NCBI RefSeq assembly: GCF_009296315.1
Contig: NZ_WHLY01000002.1
Span: 310,001-374,000 of the forward strand
DNA length: 64,000 bases
Direction: 5' to 3'
From: Salmonirosea aquatica
GTDB taxonomy: Bacteria; Bacteroidota; Bacteroidia; Cytophagales; Spirosomataceae
Each line of letters starts with the position of its first letter. Position 1 is the first letter of the stretch. The position numbers were made by a program, and so were the translations under genes. Shown here in pieces: positions 1,104-52,161 of this stretch. The notes beneath the pieces were generated by a model. It saw nothing but the letters and a program-made list of their open reading frames with translations. It was not told where the DNA came from and made no database searches.

Positions 1104-3386
1104 ATGAAAGTATGTCGATACGCCCTCCTTCTATCTATGGGTTTGCTCCTGCTTTCAACAGGGGCCAGCGCCCAGAGTGCGCGTCTCAAAGCGGCGAACA
1201 AGCAATTTGAAAACATGAGCTACCTCAGCGCGGTGAGGGCTTATGAAGATTTTCTGCGGCTGAACAAACGCAGCGATCCCATGGAAACCCGGGAAGCCCT
1301 TGTCAATCTCGGATACAGCTACCGGCGCCTCGAGGACTCCAAAAATGCCGAACGGATTTATAGTGAACTTGTCAATAATTACAATGACCTTCCCAGCGAA
1401 GTATATTTGTACTATGCTCAGTCGCTGGCTAAGAATCGCAAGTACCGCGATTCGCAGAAGATGTACGCTAAGTACGGTGAAATGCAGACTGCCGATCTTC
1501 GGGGCCGGAAATTCACGGTTTCGTACATGGATATGAACCGGTTTTATAAAGATTCATCGTCCTATCACATCGACTATCTGCCCATCAATTCGCGGCAGGC
1601 CGATTTCAGTCCTATGTACTATCAACAAGGCCTGGTGTTTGTTTCAGCCCGGAACGAATCGGGCGTAGTCAAACGCGTTTTTAATTTTAATCAATCTCCT
1701 TTTCTGGACCTGTACTTTCAGCCCGACACCGCACTTTTTCATGTGAATGCGGAGCCGACCGCAGGTGCCGCCGTCCTGGGTGGAGGAGAACTCAACAAAG
1801 CTGAGGCTGACGGAAGCGTTGCCACCAATGAAGGTACCCTGACCAAATCGGAACTGTTCAGCCGGACACTCAACACCAAATACCACGAAGGCCCGATGAC
1901 CTTTTTTAAGGATCAGAAGCGGATTATTTTTACCCGGAATAACGATGACCGCGGAAAGTCCGGTAAAAGCGACGATGGGGTTCGTAAGCTGAAACTCTAC
2001 TACGCCGAGCAAGATGACAGCGGCAAGTGGGTCAATATTGAAGAGCTTCCCTTCAATAGTAAGGATTATTCCTGTGGGCATCCTGCCCTTTCACCCGATG
2101 ATTCGCGGCTTTATTTTGTTTCCGACATGCCCGGAGGGTACGGCGGCACTGATTTATACGTCGTGGATTACAATGACGGTCAGTGGGGTACCCCAGTCAA
2201 TCTCGGCCGTGAACTCAATACCGAGGGCAACGAGATGTTCCCTTTCGTGGCGGCTGACAACACGCTCTACTTTTCATCCGACGGCCACGAAGGCCTGGGG
2301 GGGCTCGATGTTTTCATGGCCGAAATGAAAGGGGATATTGCGGTGAATGGCGTAGAAAACCTCGGAGCTCCCATCAATTCCGAGCGGGACGATTTCGGCT
2401 TCATCACCGATACCCTACGTACCTCCGGCTATTTCAGCTCCAACCGCAAGAGGGGTGCCTCGGATGACAATATCTACAGTTTCCGGCGGCTCTGCAAAGC
2501 CATGAACATTTATGTGTATGACGCCAAAACCAAAGAGCCCATTGAGTCGGCCGACGTACGGATTGTCAAGGGCGGGGTAAACCAGGAACTGCAGCAAACC
2601 GGCATGGATGGCAGCATCAGGCTCTGTATGGACTCCAATACCGAATACGAATTCAGGGGAATCAAGGAAGGGTACGCCGCCAACAGTGTCCGTTTCTCTA
2701 CCCTTACCCAGTCTACCAACCCTTCGATGGGGATTTCGATTTACCTGGATCGTAATGAAAACACTTCAATCGTGAAAGGTACCATCCGCAAGGAAGTGGA
2801 TTTGCAGCCCGCCGATGGGGTTCGAGTAACGCTTCGCAATGAGAAAGACAAGACCGAAGAAACCGTAACCACGGGTCCTGATGGAGGCTATGAATTCGAT
2901 ATGGATCCCAATTCGAATTATACCATCACCACCGAAAAAGACCGCTACACCCGGGACCAAAATCAAATAAAAACGCCCAAACGTGGCGAAGTGGTAGAAA
3001 ATAACGTGGGTATCTACGGGGAGGGCGATGTGTTCAAACTGGACAATATCTACTATGACCTTGATAAGTTTTTCATTCGTCCCGATGCCGCCAAGGAACT
3101 GGAACGTGTGGTGGCGTTGCTGAAAAAATATCCCGAAATGACCGTAGAGCTACGCTCCCACACCGATAGTCGGGCCAGTAATTTTTATAACGAAAAACTG
3201 TCCGAACGCCGGGCCCGGGCCGCTTACGACTATTTGGTGCGTCGCGGAATCAGCCCGATGCGACTGGTAGCCAAGGGATATGGAGAAACAGACCCCGTAA
3301 ACGATTGTGTGGATGGCGAAGAATGCACCGAAGATGAATACCAGCTCAATCGCCGGACCGAATTTAAAATCCTGGCTGTACAGTAG
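1104..3386 (+). CDS. OmpA-family envelope protein with TPR, PD40 beta-propeller and carboxypeptidase-regulatory-like repeats (PorE-like architecture)
   Basis: The protein has 760 residues, starting MKVCRYALLLSMG with a signal peptide ending near GASAQ. In order it has TPR-like helices (about 25-135), a PD40/WD40-like beta-propeller (about 155-465, with repeats such as HPALSPDDSRLYFVSD and DNTLYFSSDG), two carboxypeptidase-regulatory-like beta domains (about 470-635) and a C-terminal OmpA peptidoglycan-binding domain (about 645-757: YYDLDKFFIRPDA, HTDSRA, LSERRARAAYDYL, KGYGE). This order matches PorE of the type IX secretion system and related OmpA proteins encoded beside PorP/SprF. Unlike PorE there is no lipobox cysteine and no porP-like neighbour, so the link to T9SS is only possible. 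It probably anchors an outer-membrane complex to peptidoglycan. A strong terminator follows. Confidence 0.85.
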   Translation: MKVCRYALLLSMGLLLLSTGASAQSARLKAANKQFENMSYLSAVRAYEDFLRLNKRSDPMETREALVNLGYSYRRLEDSKNAERIYSELVNNYNDLPSEVYLYYAQSLAKNRKYRDSQKMYAKYGEMQTADLRGRKFTVSYMDMNRFYKDSSSYHIDYLPINSRQADFSPMYYQQGLVFVSARNESGVVKRVFNFNQSPFLDLYFQPDTALFHVNAEPTAGAAVLGGGELNKAEADGSVATNEGTLTKSELFSRTLNTKYHEGPMTFFKDQKRIIFTRNNDDRGKSGKSDDGVRKLKLYYAEQDDSGKWVNIEELPFNSKDYSCGHPALSPDDSRLYFVSDMPGGYGGTDLYVVDYNDGQWGTPVNLGRELNTEGNEMFPFVAADNTLYFSSDGHEGLGGLDVFMAEMKGDIAVNGVENLGAPINSERDDFGFITDTLRTSGYFSSNRKRGASDDNIYSFRRLCKAMNIYVYDAKTKEPIESADVRIVKGGVNQELQQTGMDGSIRLCMDSNTEYEFRGIKEGYAANSVRFSTLTQSTNPSMGISIYLDRNENTSIVKGTIRKEVDLQPADGVRVTLRNEKDKTEETVTTGPDGGYEFDMDPNSNYTITTEKDRYTRDQNQIKTPKRGEVVENNVGIYGEGDVFKLDNIYYDLDKFFIRPDAAKELERVVALLKKYPEMTVELRSHTDSRASNFYNEKLSERRARAAYDYLVRRGISPMRLVAKGYGETDPVNDCVDGEECTEDEYQLNRRTEFKILAVQ

Positions 3387-3450
3387 CCGATTTGGTAAAT
3401 GAATTTAAGGTACCTGAGTCACTTTTCTCAAAGGTACCCTTTATATCCAT

Positions 3451-3484
3451 GAGTGCCCCGCTGCTTGTCGGGGCACTCTTTTTT
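3451..3484 (+). terminator. Rho-independent terminator after the OmpA/TPR gene
   Basis: A perfect 10-bp stem (GAGTGCCCCG at 3451-3460 with CGGGGCACTC at 3469-3478), an 8-nt loop and a run of six T. It lies 65 bp after the stop of the upstream gene. Confidence 0.9.
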
Positions 3485-3566
3485 GTAGAAACTCATAACT
3501 TGCGTTAAACCAGTATTCGACCAAAAGACAGAATGAGGTAAAACCTCCAAAATCTGTTATATCTCG

Positions 3567-3887
3567 ATGAACAATCATCCAAAACCCAGAAAAACTTACA
3601 CAGATATTTCACTTCCGGAAATGAAGCGAATTCAGTCAGAACCTAATACGATTGTAGTGGACGTGCGTGAGCCCTGGGAGTTTGAAGAATTCAATGAAGG
3701 CGGTATCAATATTCCACTGTCGACGATCCGAGAGAAAAGGCAAGTACTGGAAACATTCGACACGATTGTCGTTATCTGTACCAACGGTACCCGCAGCAAA
3801 GTAGCCGCGCTAGATTACTGTAGGGTACCTACCTGGGCCGACAAATCCATTTATCACCTTCGGGGAGGTATCCTTGAAGCTGAGTAA
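3567..3887 (+). CDS. Single-domain rhodanese-like protein
   Basis: A 106-residue cytoplasmic protein with one rhodanese domain. Visible marks are the CH2A-like VVDVREPWEFEEFNEGGINIP at about 30-50 and the active-site loop CTNGTRS (Cys71 to Ser77), which fits the CxxGxRS pattern of sulfurtransferases that form a Cys persulfide. Single-domain rhodaneses move sulfane sulfur to thiol acceptors; the acceptor here is unknown. The gene stands alone between a terminator and the convergent dapF, so the context gives no pathway. The catalytic cysteine is present, so it is not an inactive relative. Confidence 0.88.
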   Translation: MNNHPKPRKTYTDISLPEMKRIQSEPNTIVVDVREPWEFEEFNEGGINIPLSTIREKRQVLETFDTIVVICTNGTRSKVAALDYCRVPTWADKSIYHLRGGILEAE

Positions 3888-37782: not shown

Positions 37783-38000
37783 TTTTTCTTCTGTTTAGTG
37801 GATTTCGTTTTGGGAGAAGCTTTCGGATTCTCGGGCAAAGTGCGCAAACGGTAGTACTGGTGCAAGAGCAGGAAGGTCAGACTGAGCATCATCAACCAAT
37901 AGCTATGGCTCAAATCGGTCCGTAGAATTTCCAGGATCCACAGCAGAAAAAAGCCCAGTGCGGCGGCCAGCAGAAGGGTCTTGATCAGTTTAGGATTCAT
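37779..38000 (-). CDS. Small two-span membrane protein, function unknown
   Basis: A 73-residue protein with two hydrophobic spans (about residues 6-22 and 33-46) and a very basic tail (PKASPKTKSTKQKKK). It overlaps the CBS/CorC gene by 4 bp, so translation is likely coupled and the small protein may assist it. I recognise no family. A 225-bp gap without a gene separates it from the divergent aldolase. Confidence 0.75.
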   Translation of the reverse strand: MNPKLIKTLLLAAALGFFLLWILEILRTDLSHSYWLMMLSLTFLLLHQYYRLRTLPENPKASPKTKSTKQKKK

Positions 38001-38225
38001 GGCAGTTCAATCAGCAGGTGGGGTACCCCGGGAAGTACTTCATAAAGTCAAAAGTAAGAAGAATCCTCAAAAATAGCGTATCCAATTGCTTTAACAACCT
38101 TTTACCCGTTTCAGGCCATTCCTTTCATTGGCAAAAAAATAGTTATCTTGCATACTCGAACCCCGGTATTTTGATAATTATCGAATACCCTAAATTTTTT
38201 CTTTAAATAATCCTTAAATCTTACC

Positions 38226-39305
38226 ATGAGCGATACAATGACCCGCTTTAAGCCCGGCGTAGTTACGGGCGAAGGCGTAAGCGAAATTTTCCGTCATGCC
38301 AACGAGAACGACTATGCCCTACCGGCTGTCAATGTCGTGGGTACCAACTCGGTGAACGCCGTTCTGGAAACCGCTCGGGCGGTCAATAGCCCCGTGATGA
38401 TTCAATTCTCTAACGGTGGCTCCATATTCTATGCGGGCAAGAGCCTGCCCAACACCGATCAGAAGGCCGCCATCGCCGGGGGTATCTCAGGAGCCATGCA
38501 CGTACATCAGATGGCAGGGCACTACGGCATACCGGTGATTCTGCACACGGACCACTGCGCTAAGAAACTGCTCCCCTGGATCGACGGTCTACTCGATGCC
38601 GGTGAAAAATATTTCGACCAGCACGGGGTACCCCTTTATAGCTCGCACATGCTGGATCTTTCGGAAGAACCCATCGAGGAAAATATCGAGATCAGCGCCA
38701 AATACTTCGAGCGTATGGCCAAAATGGGCATGACGCTGGAAATTGAATTGGGCGTGACGGGCGGCGAGGAAGATGGCGTGGACAACAGCGACGTAGATAG
38801 CTCAAAGTTGTACACCCAACCCGAAGAGGTAGCTTATGCCTATGAGGAGCTCAGCAAAATATCGCCGAATTTCACCATTGCGGCGGCATTCGGCAATGTG
38901 CATGGGGTATACAAGCCAGGTAATGTGAAGCTGCAACCTAAGATTCTGCACAATTCACAGGAGTACATCATCAAGAAATTCGGCACAGGTCCCCTACCCG
39001 TCAATTTTGTATTCCATGGGGGCTCGGGGTCGACCCGTGAAGAGATTCGGGAAGCCATTCAGTACGGCGCCGTCAAAATGAACATTGATACCGATATGCA
39101 ATGGGCTACCTGGGAAGGTATCTTGAAATATTACCACAAATCTGAACATTACCTGCAAACCCAGCTCGGCAATCCCGATGGCAGCGATTCACCCAACAAG
39201 AAGTATTACGATCCCCGCGTGTGGCTGCGTAAAGGAGAAGAAAGCATGGTAGAACGGCTTAAGGTAGCTTTCGAGGATTTGAACTGCATCAACCGGCTCG
39301 CTTAA
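38226..39305 (+). CDS. fbaA: Class II fructose-1,6-bisphosphate aldolase
   Basis: This zinc enzyme cleaves fructose-1,6-bisphosphate in glycolysis and forms it in gluconeogenesis. The 359-residue protein is of the E. coli FbaA (class IIA) length. Seen are the zinc ligands in VILHTDHCAKK (His, with Asp nearby), the loop IELGVTGGEEDGVDNS, FGNVHGVYKPG with the second zinc His, and VFHGGSGS with the third. NIDTDMQWA is the phosphate-binding end. It is a single-gene unit, closed by a strong palindromic terminator 50 bp after the stop. Confidence 0.97.
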   Translation: MSDTMTRFKPGVVTGEGVSEIFRHANENDYALPAVNVVGTNSVNAVLETARAVNSPVMIQFSNGGSIFYAGKSLPNTDQKAAIAGGISGAMHVHQMAGHYGIPVILHTDHCAKKLLPWIDGLLDAGEKYFDQHGVPLYSSHMLDLSEEPIEENIEISAKYFERMAKMGMTLEIELGVTGGEEDGVDNSDVDSSKLYTQPEEVAYAYEELSKISPNFTIAAAFGNVHGVYKPGNVKLQPKILHNSQEYIIKKFGTGPLPVNFVFHGGSGSTREEIREAIQYGAVKMNIDTDMQWATWEGILKYYHKSEHYLQTQLGNPDGSDSPNKKYYDPRVWLRKGEESMVERLKVAFEDLNCINRLA

Positions 39306-39354
39306 AGCCGTTGAGTATTACGAATGAAGACAGCTTGTCAGCGCGTGCTGTGAT

Positions 39355-39386
39355 AAAAAGGGCGAACCGTACGGTTCGCCCTTTTT
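39355..39386. terminator. Bidirectional terminator after fbaA
   Basis: A perfect 32-base palindrome with a GC-rich core (GGGCGAACCG) flanked by five A on the left and five T on the right, so it can act in both directions. It serves fbaA on the plus strand and the lipoprotein gene at 39436 on the minus strand. Confidence 0.9.
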
Positions 39387-39435
39387 ATTGAAGTCTGGAA
39401 AATGTTAAATTCCCGCTTCCAGGTTGGTGCCAATT

Positions 39436-39798
39436 TTACTGACATTTTCCGAATGAATTATCGGCTCCGTAAAAGGTAAAAACCAGCTTATCGGTCTGTA
39501 AATCTTTCAGGCCGTAGGACCAGGTACCCTCTCCATTGACACCAAAATTAGAAATCAGTATAGCCTTGTTGTCGTCCGCGATTTTCCATTGGCCGCTTTG
39601 CGTCTGGCCATTTTGCCGCTGCCGGTAGTTACCCTCCGCGCCGAAATACTGGTCGGGAAGAATCGACTGGTTGTCGCACCACCAGGTTTCGGTCAGGCTG
39701 GCTACTATTTTCGGTTGTACATCCTTCTCATTTTGACAGGAAAACCCGACCATCAGGCCCAGCCCTACTGCCCATTTAGCAAACTTTACCCCTATCAT
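39436..39798 (-). CDS. Lipoprotein of a tandem paralogous family (copy A)
   Basis: A 120-residue lipoprotein with lipobox VGFSC near residue 21. It shares with the next two genes the pattern ETWWCD (near residue 39), DQYFGAEG, QRQNGQTQSGQW and the final Cys in SFGKC. The Cys of WWCD and the last Cys are kept in all three copies, which suggests a disulfide closing a small lipocalin-like barrel. The fold is an inference. Function unknown. It is the last of three genes on the minus strand. Confidence 0.82.
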   Translation of the reverse strand: MIGVKFAKWAVGLGLMVGFSCQNEKDVQPKIVASLTETWWCDNQSILPDQYFGAEGNYRQRQNGQTQSGQWKIADDNKAILISNFGVNGEGTWSYGLKDLQTDKLVFTFYGADNSFGKCQ

Positions 39799-39876
39799 AT
39801 TGTACTGGTTTGTAAGAAACAGATTTGTTTAGCTGAAAAACGAATCTTCTCGCCAAAAAGTACCTTCTAAGGACAA

Positions 39877-40275
39877 CTACCGCCCGCTAATGGTCGAACA
39901 GGGCAGCAGGGTATGAATAGAACGACTATCACCCCGAACCGTGAATTGGAGTTTATTCTGCTTGATTTCACCGATCTCATAATAATAGTCAGAATTCGGT
40001 TTACCCTCCAATACCGGGAAATTCAGCTTTTCATTGTTAGCTGACAGTTCCCATTTCCCTAAATACTCTACTCCTTTGTAACGCTGTTTGAAGGTACCGT
40101 CGCTGTCGAAGTACTGATCTGTCATGGTACTGGTGTAGTCACACCACCATTTACCCACCAGCAATTCGCGCGTGCTGGGTTCGGCTTCTTTCTTTTGGCA
40201 GGAGAACATTCCTACCAAAAAAAGTCCAACTATTGCAGTTAACAGTCGGGTGTACGTGCGGCTTTGTTTTTTCAT
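39877..40275 (-). CDS. Lipoprotein of a tandem paralogous family (copy B)
   Basis: A 132-residue lipoprotein with lipobox VGMFSC (lipidated Cys near 26). It shows GKWWCDYTSTMTDQYFDSDG, FKQRYKGVEYLGKWEL and a late conserved Cys in LLPC, and it is the most divergent of the three in its middle. It carries a short extra tail (STISGR). It lies about 100 bp downstream of copy C. Function unknown. Confidence 0.82.
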   Translation of the reverse strand: MKKQSRTYTRLLTAIVGLFLVGMFSCQKKEAEPSTRELLVGKWWCDYTSTMTDQYFDSDGTFKQRYKGVEYLGKWELSANNEKLNFPVLEGKPNSDYYYEIGEIKQNKLQFTVRGDSRSIHTLLPCSTISGR

Positions 40276-40375
40276 TGGATGTAGATTTTTGTAAGCAAAT
40301 TGGTTTAATCATTTTACAAAAAAAAGAACGTACCACCCGTTATAAAAAATACAGTATTCCTACCAAAAACAGCTA

Positions 40376-40750
40376 CTAGGGACAGGGAGCAAATGTATAG
40401 TCGCCGATGTAATTAAGTACAAGCTTGCTGGATGACACTTCCTTGAGGCCATATGTCCAGCTGTCCACCAGATTATTCGATACGTCCGAAATGGAAATGG
40501 TTTTTTTATCAGAAGACAGCGACCACTTACCGGTTGACGTAACTCCATTGAAACGCTGCTGGAATGTCCCGTCGGCACCAAAGAATTGGTCGGCCAGGGT
40601 TTTGTTACTGTCACACCACCATTTTCCGCTTAGCTGAGCACTGACATCCGGCCCGGGATCATCATCCGACTTGCAGGAGAACATGACCAAAAGGCCAAAG
40701 AGGAAGGTCCATTTGAGGGTTTGGGTAATAGATTGGCTGTGCTTTTTCAT
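40376..40750 (-). CDS. Lipoprotein of a tandem paralogous family (copy C)
   Basis: A 124-residue lipoprotein with lipobox LVMFSC followed by KSDDDPG. The acidic run just after the Cys resembles the lipoprotein export signal that sends Bacteroidota lipoproteins to the cell surface. The shared pattern is GKWWCDSNKTLADQFFGADG, FQQRFNGVTSTGKWSL and a final Cys in FAPC. It is the first of three head-to-tail copies, each separated by about 80-100 bp. Function unknown. Confidence 0.82.
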   Translation of the reverse strand: MKKHSQSITQTLKWTFLFGLLVMFSCKSDDDPGPDVSAQLSGKWWCDSNKTLADQFFGADGTFQQRFNGVTSTGKWSLSSDKKTISISDVSNNLVDSWTYGLKEVSSSKLVLNYIGDYTFAPCP

Positions 40751-40874
40751 GAGAGTATGTTTTAAGATGACTAATATTTATATCGCAAATAAATCAGTCA
40801 TTCCAAAAAAACATAGTTTAATCCCCCTGATTTTCACACCATTTAGTAAACGGCGCTCCTGATTATAATACCTT

Positions 40875-41828
40875 TCAGGTCATTTCGGAGGCTTCTTCCA
40901 CTGCCGGTACCTCAATCCGGTCTTTTCCCCAAAAACTCGCCAGCAACGAACCGGTGATGTTCATAATCGGACCAAAAAGCGCCGGTGCAAGACCCACAGT
41001 AGCTACCTTGCCCATTTGCAAAGCTAGTCCGGAAGCCAGTCCTCCGTTCTGTAATCCCACTTCCAGCGCCACCGTGCGGCAATCCTGCTCGGGCAGCCGC
41101 AGCAAGCGGGCCAGTCCATAACCCAGCGAATAGCCCAGCAGATTGTGGATGAGGGTACAGACTACCAGTGCGGCACCGATCGTGAGCAGGCTTTCGCGTC
41201 CCGCGGCCGTAATGATACAGATGATGAGGGCGATGCCGATCATCGACACCAGCGGCATGTAGCGGTTGAGCCAGGCCGACTGCTTTCGGAATATGTAATT
41301 GACGAGCAGCCCCAGCCCGATGGGCAGGATGATCATTTTCAGGATATCCACCATCATTTTCAGAAAATCCACTTCCACGAAGGTACCCGCCAGCCATTTC
41401 ATGAGGGCAGGAGTCAACAAGGGTGCCAGCAGGGTCGCTACGGCCGTGATGGTCAGCGATAGGGCCACGTTGGCCTTAGCAATGTAGGACATGACGTTGG
41501 AAGCCAGGCCGCTGGGTGAGCAGCCAATCAGAATTACCCCGGCCGCTACCTCGGGCGGGAAATCGAAACTTGTGGCCAGGGTGTAGCCTATGACGGGCAT
41601 AATCGAAAACTGGCAAATCAGCCCGATCAGCACTGAACGCGGCGACTTGATTACGCTTTCAAAGTCTTTCAAACCCATGGTGGTACCCATACCGAACATG
41701 ATAATCATCAGCAAGGGCACGATCAGGTTCTTAAGCTCAAAACCTCCCAGGCTGGTAAATGGACCCGGAAAAATCATGGCCAGGGTAGCCGCTACGATGA
41801 TGGAAAGGGTATAGAGATACGATTTCAT
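40875..41828 (-). CDS. Bile acid:sodium symporter (BASS) family transporter
   Basis: A 317-residue inner-membrane protein read from MKSYLYTLSIIVAATLAM, with about nine or ten spans. Family marks are LLMIIMFGMGTTMGLKDF, GCSPSGLASNVMSYIAKANVALS and TVALEVGLQNGGLASGLA, which carry the sodium-site residues of the ASBT fold. In bacteria such proteins import organic acids such as pantoate or pyruvate more often than bile acids; the substrate here is unknown. An ATG at 41861 adds eleven polar residues and is less likely. Confidence 0.92.
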   Translation of the reverse strand: MKSYLYTLSIIVAATLAMIFPGPFTSLGGFELKNLIVPLLMIIMFGMGTTMGLKDFESVIKSPRSVLIGLICQFSIMPVIGYTLATSFDFPPEVAAGVILIGCSPSGLASNVMSYIAKANVALSLTITAVATLLAPLLTPALMKWLAGTFVEVDFLKMMVDILKMIILPIGLGLLVNYIFRKQSAWLNRYMPLVSMIGIALIICIITAAGRESLLTIGAALVVCTLIHNLLGYSLGYGLARLLRLPEQDCRTVALEVGLQNGGLASGLALQMGKVATVGLAPALFGPIMNITGSLLASFWGKDRIEVPAVEEASEMT

Positions 41829-41990
41829 AAGGAAGTTTGATTTGGAAGAAAAGAAAGACATCCTGCCAAACTACTTATGGCCCCGAATAGACTCAGGATA
41901 CTGGAAGGTACCCCATTTTGGTTACACATAATATTTGCTATCTCATCCATATTAGTTTGATCAAATACATTTTACAAGCACAAAAGGCAC

Positions 41991-41998
41991 TATTTTTG
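41991..41998 (+). promoter_or_regulatory. Candidate -7 element TATTTTTG of the T9SS cargo gene
   Basis: TATTTTTG matches TAnnTTTG exactly, 95 bp before the ATG at 42093. The nearest TTG is 31 bp upstream, outside the usual spacer; TTT at 41971-41973 has a 17-bp spacer. Confidence 0.35.
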
Positions 41999-42092
41999 CG
42001 TATTTATTGGTTACTCCATTAGGTAGCATTCTTACCAACCCGATATTGACACTATCAAGCGTATTATAATCTTTCGCTCAAAACAGAACTCG

Positions 42093-43736
42093 ATGCTATT
42101 TTTCAGGAAGCGCTTTTTTGGGAAAAGTATCTGTGTGATTTTCGCCTGCTTCTTCCTGCACTTCAATGCGTTTTCACAATGTCCGCAGAGTTACTCCTGG
42201 ACGGAATGGAGTAGTTTCAATGGTATGAATGCGACAGGGAGCGTTCTGGTCGACAATAAGGTCATCGGCGTCACCATGACCGCCAATTATTCCTTTGATT
42301 CAACCGAAACCATTTTTCGACTGGCCGATTATTTCGCGCCGTTCAGCGGCTATTCCCAGATTAAGGACGGGACAGTTCCGCGAATGACCTGGTCGGTGGG
42401 ACAAGGGGGCAAAACCACCATCTGTTTTTCGGAGCCCGTTACCAATCCCATACTCCTGTTTGCCTCTCTGGGCCGTCCAAGTGCAGCCGTTACACTCAGT
42501 TTTTCAGAACCCTACGTCCCCATGTTTGACGGGGGAGGGATGGATTTTCTGGATGGTTATTCCCTGAGTGGCAATGAGGGAAACTGCATTATTCTGTTTC
42601 CAGGCACCTTCAGCTGCGTTACCATCAACTCCACGACTCCCGAGTACTATACGAACATTACCTGGGGCTTACAGCCCCCTGCTTTCCCGGTAACGATCAC
42701 GGAAAAGGCAGCGGCCTGCGGTAGTACGATTCTCACGGCCCAGGGTGGAGTAAGCTACCGATGGAATGGAGGGAACAATCCTCAACAGGCTAGCAATCTG
42801 ATCGATACGAGCGGAATTTACACCGTCACGGCTACCGACGCCAGAGGATGTACGTCCGTAGCGCTGAAAAACATTTCCGAACTCCCCAAGGCCACAGTCA
42901 CTTCGGAAATCGAACAAACTATTTGCCAGGGACAATCCTATCTGGGCTATACCGCCAGCGGGGTGTACCATGATACCCTGACGAACAGTAAAGGGTGCGA
43001 CAGCATCCGAACTGTTCGCCTCACCGTGGTAGACACACCCAAACTGGATTTGGGGGGTAACCGGGAAATTTGTGAGGGAGAATCGCTTGAAATTGTACCC
43101 GCCGTGCAGGGTACGGGCCCTTTTACCTACCGCTGGTCGACGGGTGAAACCTCCCCAAACCGCACCGTCGATAAAGCAGGGAAGTATAGGCTTACCGTTG
43201 GGCAAGGGGCTTGTTCGGTCAGTGATTCAGTGCAACTCACGGTAAATCCCCGGCCCGTGGCTACTCCGGACGAAACAGTATGCAGGAATCAACCGCTGGT
43301 CGCTGGACTGGCCGACCCCAACGTATCCTACCGCTGGGTACCTTCTAACGAAACAACCCGGGAAATATCGGCAGCCCATGAAGGCATCTATCAAGTGACG
43401 CTCACGAATCAATTCGGTTGCTCAACCCTAAAAACTTTTACAGTTGTAGGCACCTGTGCGGCCCTTATTTTCGCGCCGGATGCCTTTTCACCCAACGGCG
43501 ATGCGGTGAATGATGTCTTCAAGGTACTGATAACCGGAGGAGTTCCGCTTAGCTTTACTATTTTCAACCGATGGGGGAATCCCGTGTATGCCAACCAGGA
43601 AAGCGAAACGGGATGGGATGGAACTCTGAATGATCAACCATGCGCCGAAGGTACCTACGTGTACGTGTTGCGGTATAAAAACCTTCTGGATAATTCAATA
43701 GCCGAGTATCGGGGTAGCCTGCTTCTGATGCGGTAA
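42093..43736 (+). CDS. T9SS type-B (gliding motility-associated C-terminal domain) secreted adhesin-like protein
   Basis: A 547-residue protein with a signal peptide (cleavage near NAFSQ). After an N-terminal beta domain (about 35-195) come Ig/PKD-like repeats with SYRWNGGNNPQQ, TYRWSTGETSP and SYRWVPSNE. The end is the CHU_C / type-B sorting domain: FAPDAFSPNGDAVNDVFKV, FTIFNRWGNPVY, GWDGTLNDQPCAEGTYVYVLRY. This domain directs export by the type IX secretion system, usually with SprF-type help, to the cell surface. The target of the repeats is unknown. It is convergent with pyrB. Confidence 0.92.
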   Translation: MLFFRKRFFGKSICVIFACFFLHFNAFSQCPQSYSWTEWSSFNGMNATGSVLVDNKVIGVTMTANYSFDSTETIFRLADYFAPFSGYSQIKDGTVPRMTWSVGQGGKTTICFSEPVTNPILLFASLGRPSAAVTLSFSEPYVPMFDGGGMDFLDGYSLSGNEGNCIILFPGTFSCVTINSTTPEYYTNITWGLQPPAFPVTITEKAAACGSTILTAQGGVSYRWNGGNNPQQASNLIDTSGIYTVTATDARGCTSVALKNISELPKATVTSEIEQTICQGQSYLGYTASGVYHDTLTNSKGCDSIRTVRLTVVDTPKLDLGGNREICEGESLEIVPAVQGTGPFTYRWSTGETSPNRTVDKAGKYRLTVGQGACSVSDSVQLTVNPRPVATPDETVCRNQPLVAGLADPNVSYRWVPSNETTREISAAHEGIYQVTLTNQFGCSTLKTFTVVGTCAALIFAPDAFSPNGDAVNDVFKVLITGGVPLSFTIFNRWGNPVYANQESETGWDGTLNDQPCAEGTYVYVLRYKNLLDNSIAEYRGSLLLMR

Positions 43737-46340: not shown

Positions 46341-46880
46341 TTAACGGAAACAGGCTGGCGGCGCCGAAACCGACACTTTCTCCCAGCTTACTACAAATCC
46401 TTTTTTGCTATCCACACACTCAAAGTAGATATTCTGGAATGGAGGAAAATCGTACTGTGGTATCGCCTGCCCGATTCTTTTTACCGTCTTGATCGCCGTA
46501 GGATTACTAATATCAAATACCACCAGGTCGCGACCATTGTCGGCATAGAGGTAGTTGCCTTTCACGGCCATATCATAGTTGGCTAGGATACTGAGAAAAG
46601 CTATCTTCTCTGGCTTAGCAGGATCACTATTGTCGATCACATGAATCCCTTCGCCCAGTTCATTTACAAACAAATAGTCGCCCTTGACGTAGATTTTACC
46701 CGGCTTCCGCAGAGGGCGGGGTTCCTGGGTCTCTATTTTGGTCAGTTCCGCCTGGGTAGCATAGACGGGTCGGTAAGCGGTGTTGTCAAATACAGGTCCA
46801 TTGGGAACCTCATCACGGACAGGCTCACAGCCAGCCATAACGGCCAGTATTCCAAATAGTAGAAAGTAGTTTTTCTTCAT
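46341..46880 (-). CDS. LVIVD-repeat lipoprotein, short
   Basis: A 179-residue lipoprotein with lipobox AVMAGC near residue 18. Three LVIVD-like units are seen: GKIYVKGDYLFVNELGEGIHVIDNSDPAKP, NYLYADNGRDLVVFDISNPTAI, and the end KRIGQAIPQYDFPP. With too few blades for a closed propeller, it may pair with the next protein. The C-terminus after QNIYFECVDSKKGFVVSW is not repeat-like. It is the first gene of the three-gene operon. I see no frameshift. Confidence 0.85.
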   Translation of the reverse strand: MKKNYFLLFGILAVMAGCEPVRDEVPNGPVFDNTAYRPVYATQAELTKIETQEPRPLRKPGKIYVKGDYLFVNELGEGIHVIDNSDPAKPEKIAFLSILANYDMAVKGNYLYADNGRDLVVFDISNPTAIKTVKRIGQAIPQYDFPPFQNIYFECVDSKKGFVVSWEKVSVSAPPACFR

Positions 46881-47310
46881 TGGTTCGAGCCTTTTATTTC
46901 AAGAGTTTTTACCGGAAAGAATGGTTGTAAAGCGGTGAAAAAATATCCCAGAAAATAACACTGAGTATTTTTGTACCCTTCGTCCCCCCGCTGGTTTACT
47001 ATTTTAATGATTGTATACCTTCCCAATGCCTCTGGTACCCGACAAAAAAACATGAATACAGACTTACTGTGAGATCAGCGGCTAACAGATACTTTACAAA
47101 GAGGATAAACTACCTTATCCTTTTATAATCAAAATAGTAGAATTTATTTAATAAAATTTTTAATTAAATATCGAGTATAAATTAAACAAATTTCGGTTCT
47201 TTGTTGAAAAAAAGAACATCCATGTCGAGTAGCCAAACTGCCGTATAGTTGTTTTAAAGTTTTTACAGTCAATCGTTTACCTTACATTCTCACTTTTAAC
47301 CTTGTATTGT
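46881..47310. other. 430-bp AT-rich intergenic region before susC
   Basis: This stretch separates the divergent LVIVD operon and susC. It becomes very AT-rich at about 47120-47200. I see no gene in it and no sigma/anti-sigma pair or hybrid two-component regulator near it. It must hold the promoters of both flanking operons, but I find no full consensus. Confidence 0.5.
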
Positions 47311-50300
47311 ATGAAACACAATTCCTCACTAAAAACCGGAATCTGCCAATCGCGCAGAAATCCCTTGCTCCGAGTCAGGCTGCTGATTCTGATGGCAGTG
47401 ATTATTTCCTGCTTCACCGTCCAGGCTCACACGGTGAGCACACCCGACTTTGGCGCAACGACAGCACCATTTGCAGATAAAACCGTAAAAGGTAGAGTAA
47501 CCGATGTGGCCAATGGACAGGGACTTCCCGGTGTCAATGTGGTCGTGAAAGGTACCAGTGTGGGTACTACCACGGATGAGCGGGGTGACTATTCAATCAG
47601 CGTACCCGAAAATTCGTCGGTTTTGGTATTTAGTTTCGTTGGGTACCTTAGCCAAGAAGTTCCCGTTGGTAATCGTACGACCATCGACCTGGCTCTGGCC
47701 TCCGATACCAAGGTGCTGAGTGAAGTGGTTGTGATCGGCTACGGAACTGCCAAGAAGTCCGACTTGACCGGAGCGGTGGGCTCGGTGAAAGAATCGGAAT
47801 TGCGCGAGCGTCCGGCCCCTTCACTGAACCAGCAATTGGCTGGTCGGTTGCCGGGCGTACAGGTCAACACAAACTCGGGCCGTCCGGGTGGTCGTACTAA
47901 CGTGCGGATCCGGGGTTTTAGCTCGATCAACTCCTCCAACAACCCGCTATACGTAGTAGACGGTGTGATGCTGCCCCAGGGTAACCTTTCGCAGTACAGC
48001 TCCGCCATTGACTACCTCAACCCCAATGACATCGTGTCGGTAGAAGTTTTGAAAGACGCTTCTTCTACGGCCATCTACGGAGCACGGGGCGCCAACGGCG
48101 TAATTCTGGTAACGACCAAAAAAGGAAAGGCGGGCGAAAGTTCGGTAACGTATAGCGTAGATTTGAGCGTACCTACCATCGGTCCCAAGCGTCCGCAGGT
48201 GTTGAATGCTCAGGAGTACCTCGATACGGAAGATCTGGCCTATACCAACATCGCCAAGTATGATCCCGCGGGCTGGGCTTCGGGCAAATACGCCAACCTC
48301 AACCCTATCACTCGGCGCCGGGACTACAATGCCAAATTCCCCGGCGTGTTCCGGGAAGAAAACGGCGTATTTCTCCCAAATTACGATACCAATTGGTTTA
48401 AGGAAGCCACCCAGAACCGGGTTTCTCAAAACCACCAACTGGGCTTCAGTGGCGGTAACCAGCGCACTACCTATGCCCTTTCGCTCAACTACCGCGATGA
48501 GGAAGGTCTGATCAAAACCACCTACCAGAAGCGCTATGCCGCCCGGTTCAGTATCGATGATCAGGTGAAAAAGTGGATGCGGATTGGCGCTACGCTGAGC
48601 TACAACAATCAGAACGAAAACCTCTCGGACATCAACGACGCCGTTTCGCGCCAGATCGTGGAAGACTTCCCCTTCCTGCCCGTAAAATACGCCGATGGCT
48701 CCTATGCCAACAACCGCGACTATCCGCAAGCTGAAGGCAGTATGAGCTCGGTACACCGCCTTATGGATCGCAAGTACATCATTGCTACGCAGAACACACT
48801 CGGTAGCTTGTACGCCAATCTGACCCTGGCCCCCGGCCTGGAATTACGGTCGGTACTGGGTGCGAATGTCATCACGCAAGAGATTAACCAGTCCAGTACC
48901 CGTACCCTATCCATCTCACAGTTTGGTACGGCCGAGAAAGTCAACAACAAATCGGTGTTCTGGTCGTGGGAAAACTACCTGACCTACAACAAGACGTTTA
49001 ACGGCATCCATGCCTTTACCGGCTTAGCGGGTATATCGTGGCAGGAAACGAACAATACCGGCTTACGTGCCTACATCCAGAACTTTGCCACCGACTACTT
49101 CGGCTATGACAACCTGGGTGCGGGAGCTACTAACCCGCAGGTAGGTTCGGGTGCGTCGCGCTTTGCGTTCAACTCGTACTTTGGCCGGATCAATTATAGC
49201 CTGAAAGACAAGTACCTGGTGACCGTGACGGGCCGGGCCGATGGCTCTTCCAAGTTCGGAGAGAACCACAAGTTTGCCTTCTTCCCCTCCGGAGCTTTAG
49301 CCTGGAAAGTGTCAGAAGAAGATTTCCTGAAAGGCAATCCGGTGATTTCCAACTTGAAACTACGGACCAGCTACGGCGTAACGGGTAACTCCGAGATTCC
49401 TCCCTACTCGTCACTTTCGCTGCTTAGCTCCAACTACGCTGCCGTGTATGGCGACACCCGCGTGGGCGGTACGGGTCGCAACCGCCTGGCCAACCCCGAT
49501 TTGCGCTGGGAGAAAACCGCCCAGACCGACGTGGGTGCCGAAATCAGTTTCCTGAAAGGCCGCATTTCATTTGAAGCCGACTACTATTACCGCAAAACCA
49601 CCGATATGCTGCTGGATGCCCCGGTACCCCGTACGAGTGGTTATTCTGTAATTCGCAAAAACATCGGGTCTATGCAGAACCAGGGCTTCGAGTTTGCGCT
49701 CAACACGGTCAATGTCGAGAGCGGAAGCTTCACCTGGACCTCCAACTTCAATATTTCACTGAACCGCAACAAGGTACTTTCGCTGGCTACGCCTTCGGAC
49801 ATCTTTGGTGTAGGTGGTCCCAACTTCACCAACCAGACCAGCATCATCCGCATTGGCGAACCAGTCGGTTCGTTTTGGGGCTTGATCCGGGAAGGTACCT
49901 GGAGCGAGGCTGAGCGCGATGAGGCCGCCCAGTTCCGCAGCTACCGGAATAACCTGACCATGCTGCCCGGTGATATCAAATACAAAGACCTGAACGGCGA
50001 CAAGGCTATCACCGATGCCGACCGTACCATCATTGGTAATGGTAGCCCCAAGGGCTGGGGTTCGTTCATGAACACGGTTCGCTTTGGCAACTTCGACCTG
50101 ATGCTCGATCTGCAATTCACCTACGGCAACGACGTATTGGACCTTACGTTGCACCCCAGCGAAGACCGTCAGGCCATTGCCAACAGCTACAAGACTGTGC
50201 TGGATGCCTGGACGCCCACCAACCAGGATACGCCCGTTGCTGAAATCCGGGAAACGCGCGCGGGCTACGTGACCAATGTGGATTCACACTGGGTATTCGA

Positions 50301-50559
50301 TGGCTCATTCCTGCGGGGACGTAACCTGCTGCTGGGCTACAACGTACCCGCTGACCTGACCAGCAAACTGAAGATGAGCAAAATCCGCCTGTATGTTTCG
50401 GCGCAGAACTTCTTCCTGCTGACCAAGTACCCCCACGGCGATCCCGAAGTGACGCCTACAAACGGCGATGCAGCAAGCAATGTGTTCTCACAGGGTATTA
50501 TCTGGCACGGCTATCCCAAACCTACCATTTACATGGGCGGTATCCAGGTGGCGTTTTAA
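47311..50559 (+). CDS. susC: SusC/RagA family TonB-linked outer-membrane protein
   Basis: A 1082-residue TonB-dependent outer-membrane transporter. A signal segment is followed by a carboxypeptidase-regulatory-like domain (about 50-125: VKGRVTDVANGQGLPGVNVVVKG, TTTDERGDYSI), the TonB-box region SEVVVIGYG, the plug (LAGRLPGVQVNTN, VRIRGFSSINSSN, PLYVVDGV, STAIYGARGANGVILVTTKKG) and a 22-strand barrel ending in a Phe (GGIQVAF). With the next gene it forms a SusCD pair, importing a glycan or peptide. No glycoside hydrolase lies beside it, so the substrate is unknown. Start at ATG 47311 is preferred to a TTG nine bases earlier. Confidence 0.96.
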   Translation: MKHNSSLKTGICQSRRNPLLRVRLLILMAVIISCFTVQAHTVSTPDFGATTAPFADKTVKGRVTDVANGQGLPGVNVVVKGTSVGTTTDERGDYSISVPENSSVLVFSFVGYLSQEVPVGNRTTIDLALASDTKVLSEVVVIGYGTAKKSDLTGAVGSVKESELRERPAPSLNQQLAGRLPGVQVNTNSGRPGGRTNVRIRGFSSINSSNNPLYVVDGVMLPQGNLSQYSSAIDYLNPNDIVSVEVLKDASSTAIYGARGANGVILVTTKKGKAGESSVTYSVDLSVPTIGPKRPQVLNAQEYLDTEDLAYTNIAKYDPAGWASGKYANLNPITRRRDYNAKFPGVFREENGVFLPNYDTNWFKEATQNRVSQNHQLGFSGGNQRTTYALSLNYRDEEGLIKTTYQKRYAARFSIDDQVKKWMRIGATLSYNNQNENLSDINDAVSRQIVEDFPFLPVKYADGSYANNRDYPQAEGSMSSVHRLMDRKYIIATQNTLGSLYANLTLAPGLELRSVLGANVITQEINQSSTRTLSISQFGTAEKVNNKSVFWSWENYLTYNKTFNGIHAFTGLAGISWQETNNTGLRAYIQNFATDYFGYDNLGAGATNPQVGSGASRFAFNSYFGRINYSLKDKYLVTVTGRADGSSKFGENHKFAFFPSGALAWKVSEEDFLKGNPVISNLKLRTSYGVTGNSEIPPYSSLSLLSSNYAAVYGDTRVGGTGRNRLANPDLRWEKTAQTDVGAEISFLKGRISFEADYYYRKTTDMLLDAPVPRTSGYSVIRKNIGSMQNQGFEFALNTVNVESGSFTWTSNFNISLNRNKVLSLATPSDIFGVGGPNFTNQTSIIRIGEPVGSFWGLIREGTWSEAERDEAAQFRSYRNNLTMLPGDIKYKDLNGDKAITDADRTIIGNGSPKGWGSFMNTVRFGNFDLMLDLQFTYGNDVLDLTLHPSEDRQAIANSYKTVLDAWTPTNQDTPVAEIRETRAGYVTNVDSHWVFDGSFLRGRNLLLGYNVPADLTSKLKMSKIRLYVSAQNFFLLTKYPHGDPEVTPTNGDAASNVFSQGIIWHGYPKPTIYMGGIQVAF

Positions 50560-50601: not shown

Positions 50602-52161
50602 ATGAAACGATATAATTTTAAGAAAACAGCGAAAATACTCCTGTGCGGATTTGTGCTGCTGGGGCCGACAGCCTGCAAGGACTTTCTGGAAGAGCAAGAT
50701 CCGGCTAACCTGACTCCCGAGAGTTTCTATACCATTCCTGACCACGCCGAAGCCGCCATCGCAGCCGCCTACGCCGAAATGCGTTTCTACGGCGATGGCT
50801 CCGGGATTTTCTCGTCCAACTGGCAGATGCTAGAAGCTGTAACGGGTACTTCCACGACCGAAACCGCCCAGAATTCGGACTTGAACAACCTGTATTCGCT
50901 CTCGTACGACGGTAACACGCAGCACCCGATCAATTTCTGGAATGGCCTGTACCGGGTGATCGCCAACGCCAACCTGGTGCTGGAAAAGGTACCCCCTATC
51001 ACCCCCATGCCCGAAGCACAGAAAACCAAAATTCTGGGGGAAGCCCGCTTCCTCCGCGCCTGGTCGTATTTCTACCTGGTACGGTTGTGGGGTGATGTAC
51101 CCATCATCACCATGCCACAAACGGCTTCTTCCGAGAACTTCTATCCTGCCCGTGCGCCCCAGGAAGAGGTGTATCAGCTTATCGTAGACGACTTGAAAGT
51201 AGCCGAGGCAGCTGGCTTACCCTGGATGGACGTAACGGGTCGGGCCAACCTGGCCGCGGCCAAATCGCTACTCGCTAAGGTGTACCTGACGATGGCCGGA
51301 TTCCCATTGAGCAAGGGGGCTACCCATTACAAGTTAGCTGCCGATAAGGCCAAGGAAGTGATCGACTACGCCAATGCCAACCCGACCACGATCAACCTGT
51401 TCCCGAATTATAAGGATGTACACAACGAAACCCTCAAAAACCGGCTGGAGCATATTTTCATGATTCAGTACAACTCCACGGTTGCGGGTAATCCGATGGA
51501 CAACTTCTACCCTAACTTTAAGCCCGTCACCTATTCGGGCCCGGGAGGTACGGGTAGTTCGGTACCTACACGGTCGTTCTATGATTCGTATGAAACGGGC
51601 GACCGCCGCACCAAGGATCAGGAGGGATGGTTTTATACCACCTACTTCACCAATGGCAACGGCGCGCGCTTCGACCTGGGTGCTCCCTATGTCTTCAAGC
51701 ACTTCAACTTCATTGCCAATGGCACCGAAGGCCTGGCTGGTACCCGGAATAACAATCTCAATGTACCCCTTATCCGTTACGCCGAGGTGCTATTGATTTT
51801 TGCCGAAGCCCAAAACGAGGTGACGGGCCCCACCCAGGAAGCTTATGATGCCTACAAGCGTATTCGCGACCGCGCTACTCTGACCACTCCCGCTCTGGGT
51901 ACCTTCGACAAGGCATCTTTCCGGGAAGCGGTTTGGCGCGAGCGCTGGTACGAACTGGCCTACGAAGGCAAAACCTGGTTCGACATGGTGCGCCTGCGCA
52001 AGGTATTCAATGAAAAAACCAAAAAGTTTGACGATTTTGTGGGTCACGTAAACCTGAACACGAATGTACCCCTGGCCGAGAAACACCTGTTGTTCCCGCT
52101 GGGCATTCAGGAGATGCTCAATAATCCGAATCTGAAGCCGCAGAACCCTGGCTACAACTAA
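50602..52161 (+). CDS. susD: SusD/RagB family nutrient-binding outer-membrane lipoprotein
   Basis: The 519-residue lipoprotein lids the SusC transporter. The lipobox is LLGPTAC (Cys near residue 25), followed by KDFLEEQDPANLTPESFYT, the usual SusD start. TPR-like helical content is seen in LGEARFLRAWSYFYLVRLWGDVPII, and the C-terminal RagB part has FREAVWRERWYELAYEGKTWFDMVRLRK and ENNPNLKPQNPGYN-like NNPNLKPQNPGYN. It starts 42 bp after susC and closes the pair; a long bidirectional terminator follows. Confidence 0.96.
   Translation: MKRYNFKKTAKILLCGFVLLGPTACKDFLEEQDPANLTPESFYTIPDHAEAAIAAAYAEMRFYGDGSGIFSSNWQMLEAVTGTSTTETAQNSDLNNLYSLSYDGNTQHPINFWNGLYRVIANANLVLEKVPPITPMPEAQKTKILGEARFLRAWSYFYLVRLWGDVPIITMPQTASSENFYPARAPQEEVYQLIVDDLKVAEAAGLPWMDVTGRANLAAAKSLLAKVYLTMAGFPLSKGATHYKLAADKAKEVIDYANANPTTINLFPNYKDVHNETLKNRLEHIFMIQYNSTVAGNPMDNFYPNFKPVTYSGPGGTGSSVPTRSFYDSYETGDRRTKDQEGWFYTTYFTNGNGARFDLGAPYVFKHFNFIANGTEGLAGTRNNNLNVPLIRYAEVLLIFAEAQNEVTGPTQEAYDAYKRIRDRATLTTPALGTFDKASFREAVWRERWYELAYEGKTWFDMVRLRKVFNEKTKKFDDFVGHVNLNTNVPLAEKHLLFPLGIQEMLNNPNLKPQNPGYN

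Follow-up and report, generated by a model that had tools for sequence, protein, structure and literature searches.

The locus described here raises the question of what three small lipoprotein genes, arranged head to tail, encode and whether their products belong to a described protein family. The genes lie in a stretch of 64,000 nucleotides of the Salmonirosea aquatica genome (hereafter, the window). In its published description, strain SJW1-29 is a brackish-water member of the Spirosomaceae with a genome of 7,065,248 bp in four contigs and an N50 of 6,512,965 (PMC11356934). The genome carrying the window had 7,065,248 bases in four contigs, and the contig with the window was 6,512,965 bases long. 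The features of the locus were as follows, with coordinates counted within the window.

40376-40750, minus strand: P1, lipoprotein of 124 residues with lipobox Cys26, Cys46 and Cys123; predicted lipocalin-like domain at about residues 41-124
39877-40275, minus strand: P2, lipoprotein of 132 residues, the most diverged of the three copies
39436-39798, minus strand: P3, lipoprotein of 120 residues, the third gene of the array
40613-40615, minus strand: P1 Cys46 codon; this residue is the Cys of WWC and is predicted to be on strand A
40382-40384, minus strand: codon of P1 Cys123, directly past the last predicted strand (residues 117-122)
40875-41861, minus strand: sodium/bile-acid symporter family (SBF) transporter, the upstream neighbour
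38226-39305, plus strand: class II fructose-bisphosphate aldolase, the downstream neighbour on the opposite strand
39353-39388, A-/T-flanked on both strands: hairpin of 16 base pairs lying between the P3 and aldolase genes (-25.4 kcal/mol, z -7.3)

A preliminary description of this DNA had proposed three tandem paralogous lipoproteins of 120-132 residues. Three open reading frames of this kind were present, separated by gaps of 100 and 78 bases, and each product had a signal peptide ending in FSC, as judged by eye. When P1 was used as a query against its own genome, P3 was retrieved with E 5.0e-29 (42% identity) and P2 with E 8.8e-21 (36%), and the next-best match had an E-value of only 0.003. 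Because of the gap between 8.8e-21 and 0.003, the resemblance of P1-P3 is not due to chance, and the three proteins are paralogues. Invariant in their alignment were WWCD, D54-Q55, F57, G61, Q65-R66, G69, G74, W76, K109-L110 and the last Cys. The shared motifs were thus present as first described, except that the spacing is QR..G....G.W, with four residues between the two Gly and not three.

As had been recommended, a profile of the three copies was searched against genomes (200 drawn from the taxonomic family), and it retrieved strong relatives there. Membership was assigned at E 1.6e-18 or better; weaker matches, beginning at E 6.7e-6, were excluded from the two family alignments, A2 with 17 rows and A3 with 18 rows. 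The larger whole-genome searches scored the best 11-21 candidates per genome, and the resulting tallies are lower bounds. In the search with A3 at E 1e-10, a member was found in at least 14 of 222 genomes of the taxonomic family, representing at least 8 of 36 genera. A family match was present on a Persicitalea jodogahamensis contig, at the same position as the match in G016. At least 7 of 390 genomes drawn from the order reached E 1e-10, including one that does not belong to the taxonomic family (G314, with protein L047), and at least 8 further genomes reached 1e-6. At the class level, at least 5 of 395 genomes besides the window's own reached 1e-6, with none below 1e-9 among the matches listed. 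Across the 18 aligned members, Q65, F57, G61, G74, W76 and both Cys were conserved in 17 or 18, the R of QR was present in 8, and a Cys followed the hydrophobic stretch in all 18 (by eye).

Two of the five class-level genomes encoded lipoproteins of 116-119 residues with YW, HYF.SDG and GTW (or GTWKW-like) motifs and no Cys after the Trp. Lipoproteins of this kind were L088, L092 and L093, encoded at three separate places in G891, and L089 in G854; the three of these that were scanned against Pfam gave nothing at E up to 0.1. Wider kin of the family, lacking the Cys pair, thus exists, and these proteins may form a sister family that would not have the disulfide proposed below.

The family had been described as unrecognised, and this was borne out: P1-P3 fell below every Pfam and NCBIfam cut-off, and the searches run gave no strong match to a well-described family of known function. 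The best Pfam match of P1 (E 0.016) and P2 (E 0.0067) was the DUF4923 lipocalin-like domain (PF16270), a weak match below the cut-off; at E 1e-5, a DUF4923 member was present in 0 of the 39 relatives' genomes searched. Among the relatives, the best Pfam E-value was 0.0016 for L047, and for the 17 rows of A2 it was 0.0067. The best NCBIfam E-value over the 18 rows was 0.003. When 10 of the 18 members were scanned against NCBIfam, 18 of the 22 listed rows began at residues 1-4, so the signal peptide was included in these matches. Some of them extended over the domain as well, such as SP_0198 (residues 2-96), Riean_0653 (1-112) and BSAP-5i (1-97). Riean_0653, which has no stated function, recurred in 6 of the 10 members; its best E was 0.0089, at 16.9 bits (cut-off 57). 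A literature search on lipocalin-like Bacteroidetes lipoproteins and "Lipocalin_4" returned no title on this family among the best-ranked matches.

The BSAP-5i match bears on a reading in which the array consists of immunity lipoproteins acting against toxins of rival strains. Diverged tandem copies would suit such an array, and the immunity lipoprotein BSAP-5i gave weak NCBIfam scores in 3 of 18 members (E up to 0.1). However, of the ten members scanned singly, two matched BSAP-5i, at 13.8 and 11.3 bits (cut-off 150); both matches started at residue 1 (1-97 and 1-58) and included the signal peptide, and P1-P3 were unmatched. Moreover, among the matches listed, 12 of 14 family genomes were single-copy, more than one copy being seen only in the Salmonirosea genome (three) and in G016 (two). 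P1-P3 had no match in PADLOC, and no relative was found on plasmids (P1 alone as the query) or on viral contigs (pattern-based search). This reading is extremely unlikely.

A link to a curated family was obtained by profile-profile comparison. The family core, from which the signal and tether had been removed, was aligned with Lipocalin_4 (PF13648), a lipocalin-like domain found in lipoproteins of Bacteroidota. Lipocalin_4 was represented by all 11 proteins that the Pfam model, used by itself, retrieved at E 1e-5 from the genome of the window and those of 13 relatives, 14 in total. The alignment covered 56 columns with a score of 36.3 and a probability of 88%, at E 2.7e-6 (5.4e-8 when the tether was retained), these hhalign E-values referring to a single comparison. 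The best of 100 column shuffles scored 14.7, and the reversed profile scored 8.9. The aligned region spans DQ.F to the late KL; neither the last Cys nor the WWC strand is part of it. A scan of ten relatives that were weaker or outlying (8 from the order search and 2 from the search with the three-copy profile) placed 5 over the Lipocalin_4 cut-off and one exactly at it. P1-P3 themselves had no match to PF13648 at E up to 10, and the sole family member matching the model was L047, with 19.7 against a cut-off of 22.4. Given the profile link and the relatives over the cut-off, the family appears to be distantly related to Lipocalin_4, although it falls below the Pfam cut-off and is not filed there. 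The likeness extends to the lipoprotein character, the small domain, the F..DGt and GtW.l motifs, and solved lipocalin-like Bacteroides proteins that match in fold; the WWC motif and the invariant Cys pair set the family apart.

The structures of P1 and P2 were predicted with AlphaFold2. In the P1 model (17-row alignment), pLDDT averaged 82.7 overall and 90-96 by block over residues 41-124. The P2 model (18 rows) averaged 83.1, with blocks at 91-96 over residues 31-130 except for 79 (91-100) and 83 (111-120). Eight strands were predicted in each. The top PDB match of the P1 model in Foldseek was 4qrl, a lipocalin-like protein, at E 1.7e-3, and there was no PDB match at E 1e-3 or better. In VIA, 4qrl was again first for P1, with Z 11.1 and an rmsd of 1.8 over 82 residues, followed by 4nw4 (10.8), 4gzv (10.5), 4kh8 (10.4), 3hty (10.3) and Tannerella potempin E, 8ehc (10.2). 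For P2, the values were 10.3 for 4nw4 and 10.1 for both 4qrl and 8ehc. These Z-scores of 10-11 are above the 7-8 that, according to the tool, are typical of models without a clear match, and the gap is not wide. The nearest solved fold to P1, 4qrl, is the lipocalin-like protein BACUNI_01346 of Bacteroides uniformis; it is 23% identical to P1, but it gave no match in the profile search at E up to 10. Searching the sequences of solved chains with the profiles of 17 and 18 rows returned three distinct chains, none a lipocalin by name, at a best E of 0.033. In a viral fold library, nothing was found at E 1e-3 or better; the best match was the algal-virus protein EsV-1-190 (E 4.4e-3), and two phage proteins labelled "lipoprotein" followed at E 0.023 and 0.029.

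These models support a lipocalin-like fold for P1 and P2, the two copies modelled, which had been a guess: the eight strands, the best solved matches (lipocalin-like or similar barrels) and the 56-column link to Lipocalin_4 all point in this direction. Comparison with META/HslJ folds had also been recommended. The E. coli entry 2kts (NP_415897.1), which we take to be HslJ, resembled both models, with Z 8.2 to P1 and 8.0 to P2, and a META/HslJ-type barrel could be considered on these grounds. However, the lipocalin-like Bacteroides proteins scored 2-3 Z higher than 2kts for P1 and about 2 higher for P2, P1-P3 had no match to Pfam META at E up to 10, and the sequence profile favours Lipocalin_4. 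A META/HslJ-type barrel is therefore very unlikely, and the lipocalin-like barrel is preferred.

Cys46 and Cys123 were present in 18 of 18 rows, as was Trp45, and Trp44 was present in 17; the invariance of the Cys is partly a matter of choice, since the rows were gathered with profiles containing WWC. The distant last Cys nevertheless accompanies the WWC Cys in every row. In the P1 model, Cys46 is on predicted strand A and Cys123 is just past the last strand. Strands A and H are adjacent in a closed lipocalin barrel. Because the conserved Cys would lie on and beside neighbouring strands, a Cys46-Cys123 disulfide closing the barrel is likely according to the model. The earlier suggestion that the two shared Cys form one disulfide fits their joint occurrence, which a disulfide needs.

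The calycin signature includes a Trp-Arg lock, in which the Trp of a strand-A Gly-X-Trp motif is packed against a strand-H Arg (PMC3367933). The Gly was present in 3 of the 18 members, P1 and P2 among them. An Arg within ten residues before the final Cys was found in 1 of 18, and the last strand had no conserved Arg, so that this family shows the classical calycin signature incompletely. Classical calycins and lipocalins such as E. coli Blc resemble the family in the eight strands and the strand-A Trp, and Blc entries gave Z 7.6-7.9 for P2. In contrast, the family is shorter, mostly has no Gly and no conserved strand-H Arg, and has the Cys pair instead.

The neighbourhood of the genes was compared across 14 relatives' loci. 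Only in Persicitalea was a block in common with the window found; it extends from 46341-46880 down to P1 and includes the transporter. The SBF transporter gene was also directly upstream of both Persicitalea copies. In the window, a gene for a CHU_C type IX secretion domain protein (42093-43736) lies on the far side of the transporter and is extra relative to the syntenic Persicitalea block. In other genera, a cupin gene was upstream on the same strand in five genomes of one genus, and a beta-lactamase-type serine hydrolase and a thioredoxin flanked the family gene in three genomes of another. Two genomes of one genus had, beside or close to the family gene, a gene for an exported protein of 335-350 residues; in a second genus, G024 had two such genes, the identity being 31-34%. 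These proteins start with SFT.LPN..... (L066:7400-8446, L067:7592-8638, L065:761-1768 and 2822-3874), and the two that were scanned had no Pfam match. None of the cupin, serine hydrolase, thioredoxin or exported protein genes was seen beside the window genes. Because the recurrent exported neighbour was not seen at the window locus, no function was drawn from it, and the neighbourhood as a whole gave none either. A few kb from a family member in G123, the same translated peptide recurs in open reading frames of several frames (L063:1150-2403), and this region looks like a CRISPR array.

The hairpin at 39353-39388 is likely a two-way terminator that closes the array. It was missed in a motif scan, perhaps because of a T run inside the stem. 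RNA elements of Rfam were absent from 38000-43000. A scan for sigma-70-type promoters gave 2 sites against 4.3 in shuffles, a consensus that says little for Bacteroidota, and exact TAnnTTTG was absent from the minus strand of the four gaps.

The neighbours are relevant to another reading, in which the proteins are potempin-like protease inhibitors, that is, lipocalin-like lipoproteins in which a terminal loop of the barrel blocks a protease that the cell itself secretes. Potempin E of Tannerella forsythia (8ehc, 8ehd) is a small lipoprotein with a barrel similar to that in the P1 and P2 models, among the closest solved folds of both, and potempins in general are small lipoproteins (PMC7296668). 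By analogy, this likeness suggests that barrels of the potempin E type can act as protease inhibitors. On the other hand, the same source places potempin genes directly before a protease gene, that of potempin E adjoining a KLIKK protease gene (PMC7296668), whereas the window genes are flanked by the transporter and aldolase genes. The serine hydrolase found in three genomes of one genus was the sole recurring hydrolase among the neighbours scanned, and potempin E was not matched in sequence by the family profiles at any E up to 10. A potempin-like role is thus improbable for the array, and a barrel binding some ligand or partner is retained as the preferred reading.

A phylogenetic tree of the family was examined for the history of the array. 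P1, P2 and the first Persicitalea copy formed an unresolved group, and P3 was placed beside the second Persicitalea copy, L038, with support of 89/76; the latter is probably the orthologue of P3. Neither Persicitalea copy was a clear orthologue of P2, whose branch length was 2.09 against 0.38 for P1. The likeliest history, which the tree leaves unproven, is an ancestor with two copies followed by a third, fast-changing copy in Salmonirosea. The far longer branch of P2 looks as if its role had changed while the reading frame stayed open.

It had further been proposed that the proteins are exposed on the cell surface and change fast. Surface export signals have been published for Capnocytophaga (C-X-K-(D/E)2-X), B. 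fragilis (SDDDD) and F. johnsoniae (SDDFE) (PMC5080379). The sequence after the lipidated Cys is C-K-S-D-D-D in P1, C-Q-K-K-E-A in P2 and C-Q-N-E-K-D in P3. The SDDD described for the first gene was therefore found in P1, though after Cys-Lys and not directly after the Cys, and P2 and P3 do not have it. C-x-K-(D/E)2 was present in 4 of 18 members (L015, L017, L023 and L024); this consensus comes from other genera and may not be that of the host. SusD N-termini of the same genome were used for comparison, 30 of the 59 SusD-domain matches being fetched and 29 N-termini being readable. An acidic residue was at +3 in 22 of the 29, where P1 has Ser, and three consecutive acids starting at +2 to +4 were found in 0 of 29. 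One of the 59 matches is a SusD-like gene within the window (50602-52161), after a large plus-strand open reading frame (47302-50559). Surface exposure of P1, judged from its N-terminal sequence, is possible; for the array as a whole it is left as a proposal. Only P1 carries a run resembling the published signals, and the 29 SusD N-termini do not share it.

To describe the rate of change, dN/dS was calculated for thirteen orthologue pairs from two genera, and four with saturated dS were dropped. For the nine pairs with finite dS, the family gene gave 0.11-0.18 in eight and 0.03 in one. The corresponding ranges for six neighbour genes were 0.04-0.09, 0.11-0.18, 0.09-0.12, 0.06-0.07, 0.07-0.08 and 0.03-0.04; in the pair where the family gene had 0.03, two neighbours were at 0.09 and 0.14. 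The family is under purifying selection on average and changes mostly faster than its neighbours, but not faster than all of them. Between Salmonirosea and Persicitalea, P1 was 58% identical to its orthologue, and five syntenic genes were 63, 72, 65, 95 and 87% identical. Fast change is thus only mild, and the wide divergence of the copies noted initially includes the long branch of P2.

These data also bear on the reading that the proteins are surface-exposed, fast-changing lipoproteins, either adhesins or coat proteins facing phages or grazers, that escape recognition. The acidic run of P1, the four members with C-x-K-(D/E)2 and the identity of P1, under that of the five syntenic genes, would agree with it. 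However, the dN/dS of 0.03-0.18 indicates purifying selection on average, P2 and P3 are without the signal, and P1 has Ser at the position where most SusD N-termini are acidic. Such a coat or adhesin role is considered unlikely.

On balance, it is fairly probable that P1-P3 are outer-membrane lipoproteins, each consisting of one minimal, disulfide-closed, eight-stranded lipocalin-like barrel that binds a ligand or partner. A barrel of about 85 residues would be anchored in the outer membrane by its lipid through a short, flexible, Pro-containing tether. The WWC Cys on strand A and the last Cys at strand H would be bonded, closing the barrel, and this bond may take over the job of the calycin Trp-Arg lock. 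Through its mouth and loops, the barrel would bind a partner protein or a small ligand, either in the periplasm or on the cell surface; after duplication, specificity may have been split among the copies or have changed. A bolder version seems doubtful to us: minimal lipocalins centred on the Spirosomataceae, in which an A-H disulfide replaced the calycin lock and the copies, duplicated into an array in Salmonirosea and Persicitalea, would each bind a different ligand or block a different protease on the cell surface.

To our knowledge, the jobs of lipocalin-like lipoproteins of Bacteroidota are largely unknown. The family is one without a curated name and is ordinary in kind, and the three-gene array alone leaves the wider picture unchanged. 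What it adds to the lipocalin-like lipoproteins of Bacteroidota is a family that has no curated model and has a clear sequence signature, in which the Cys pair and the tandem copies together form a compact test case for barrel stabilisation and binding.
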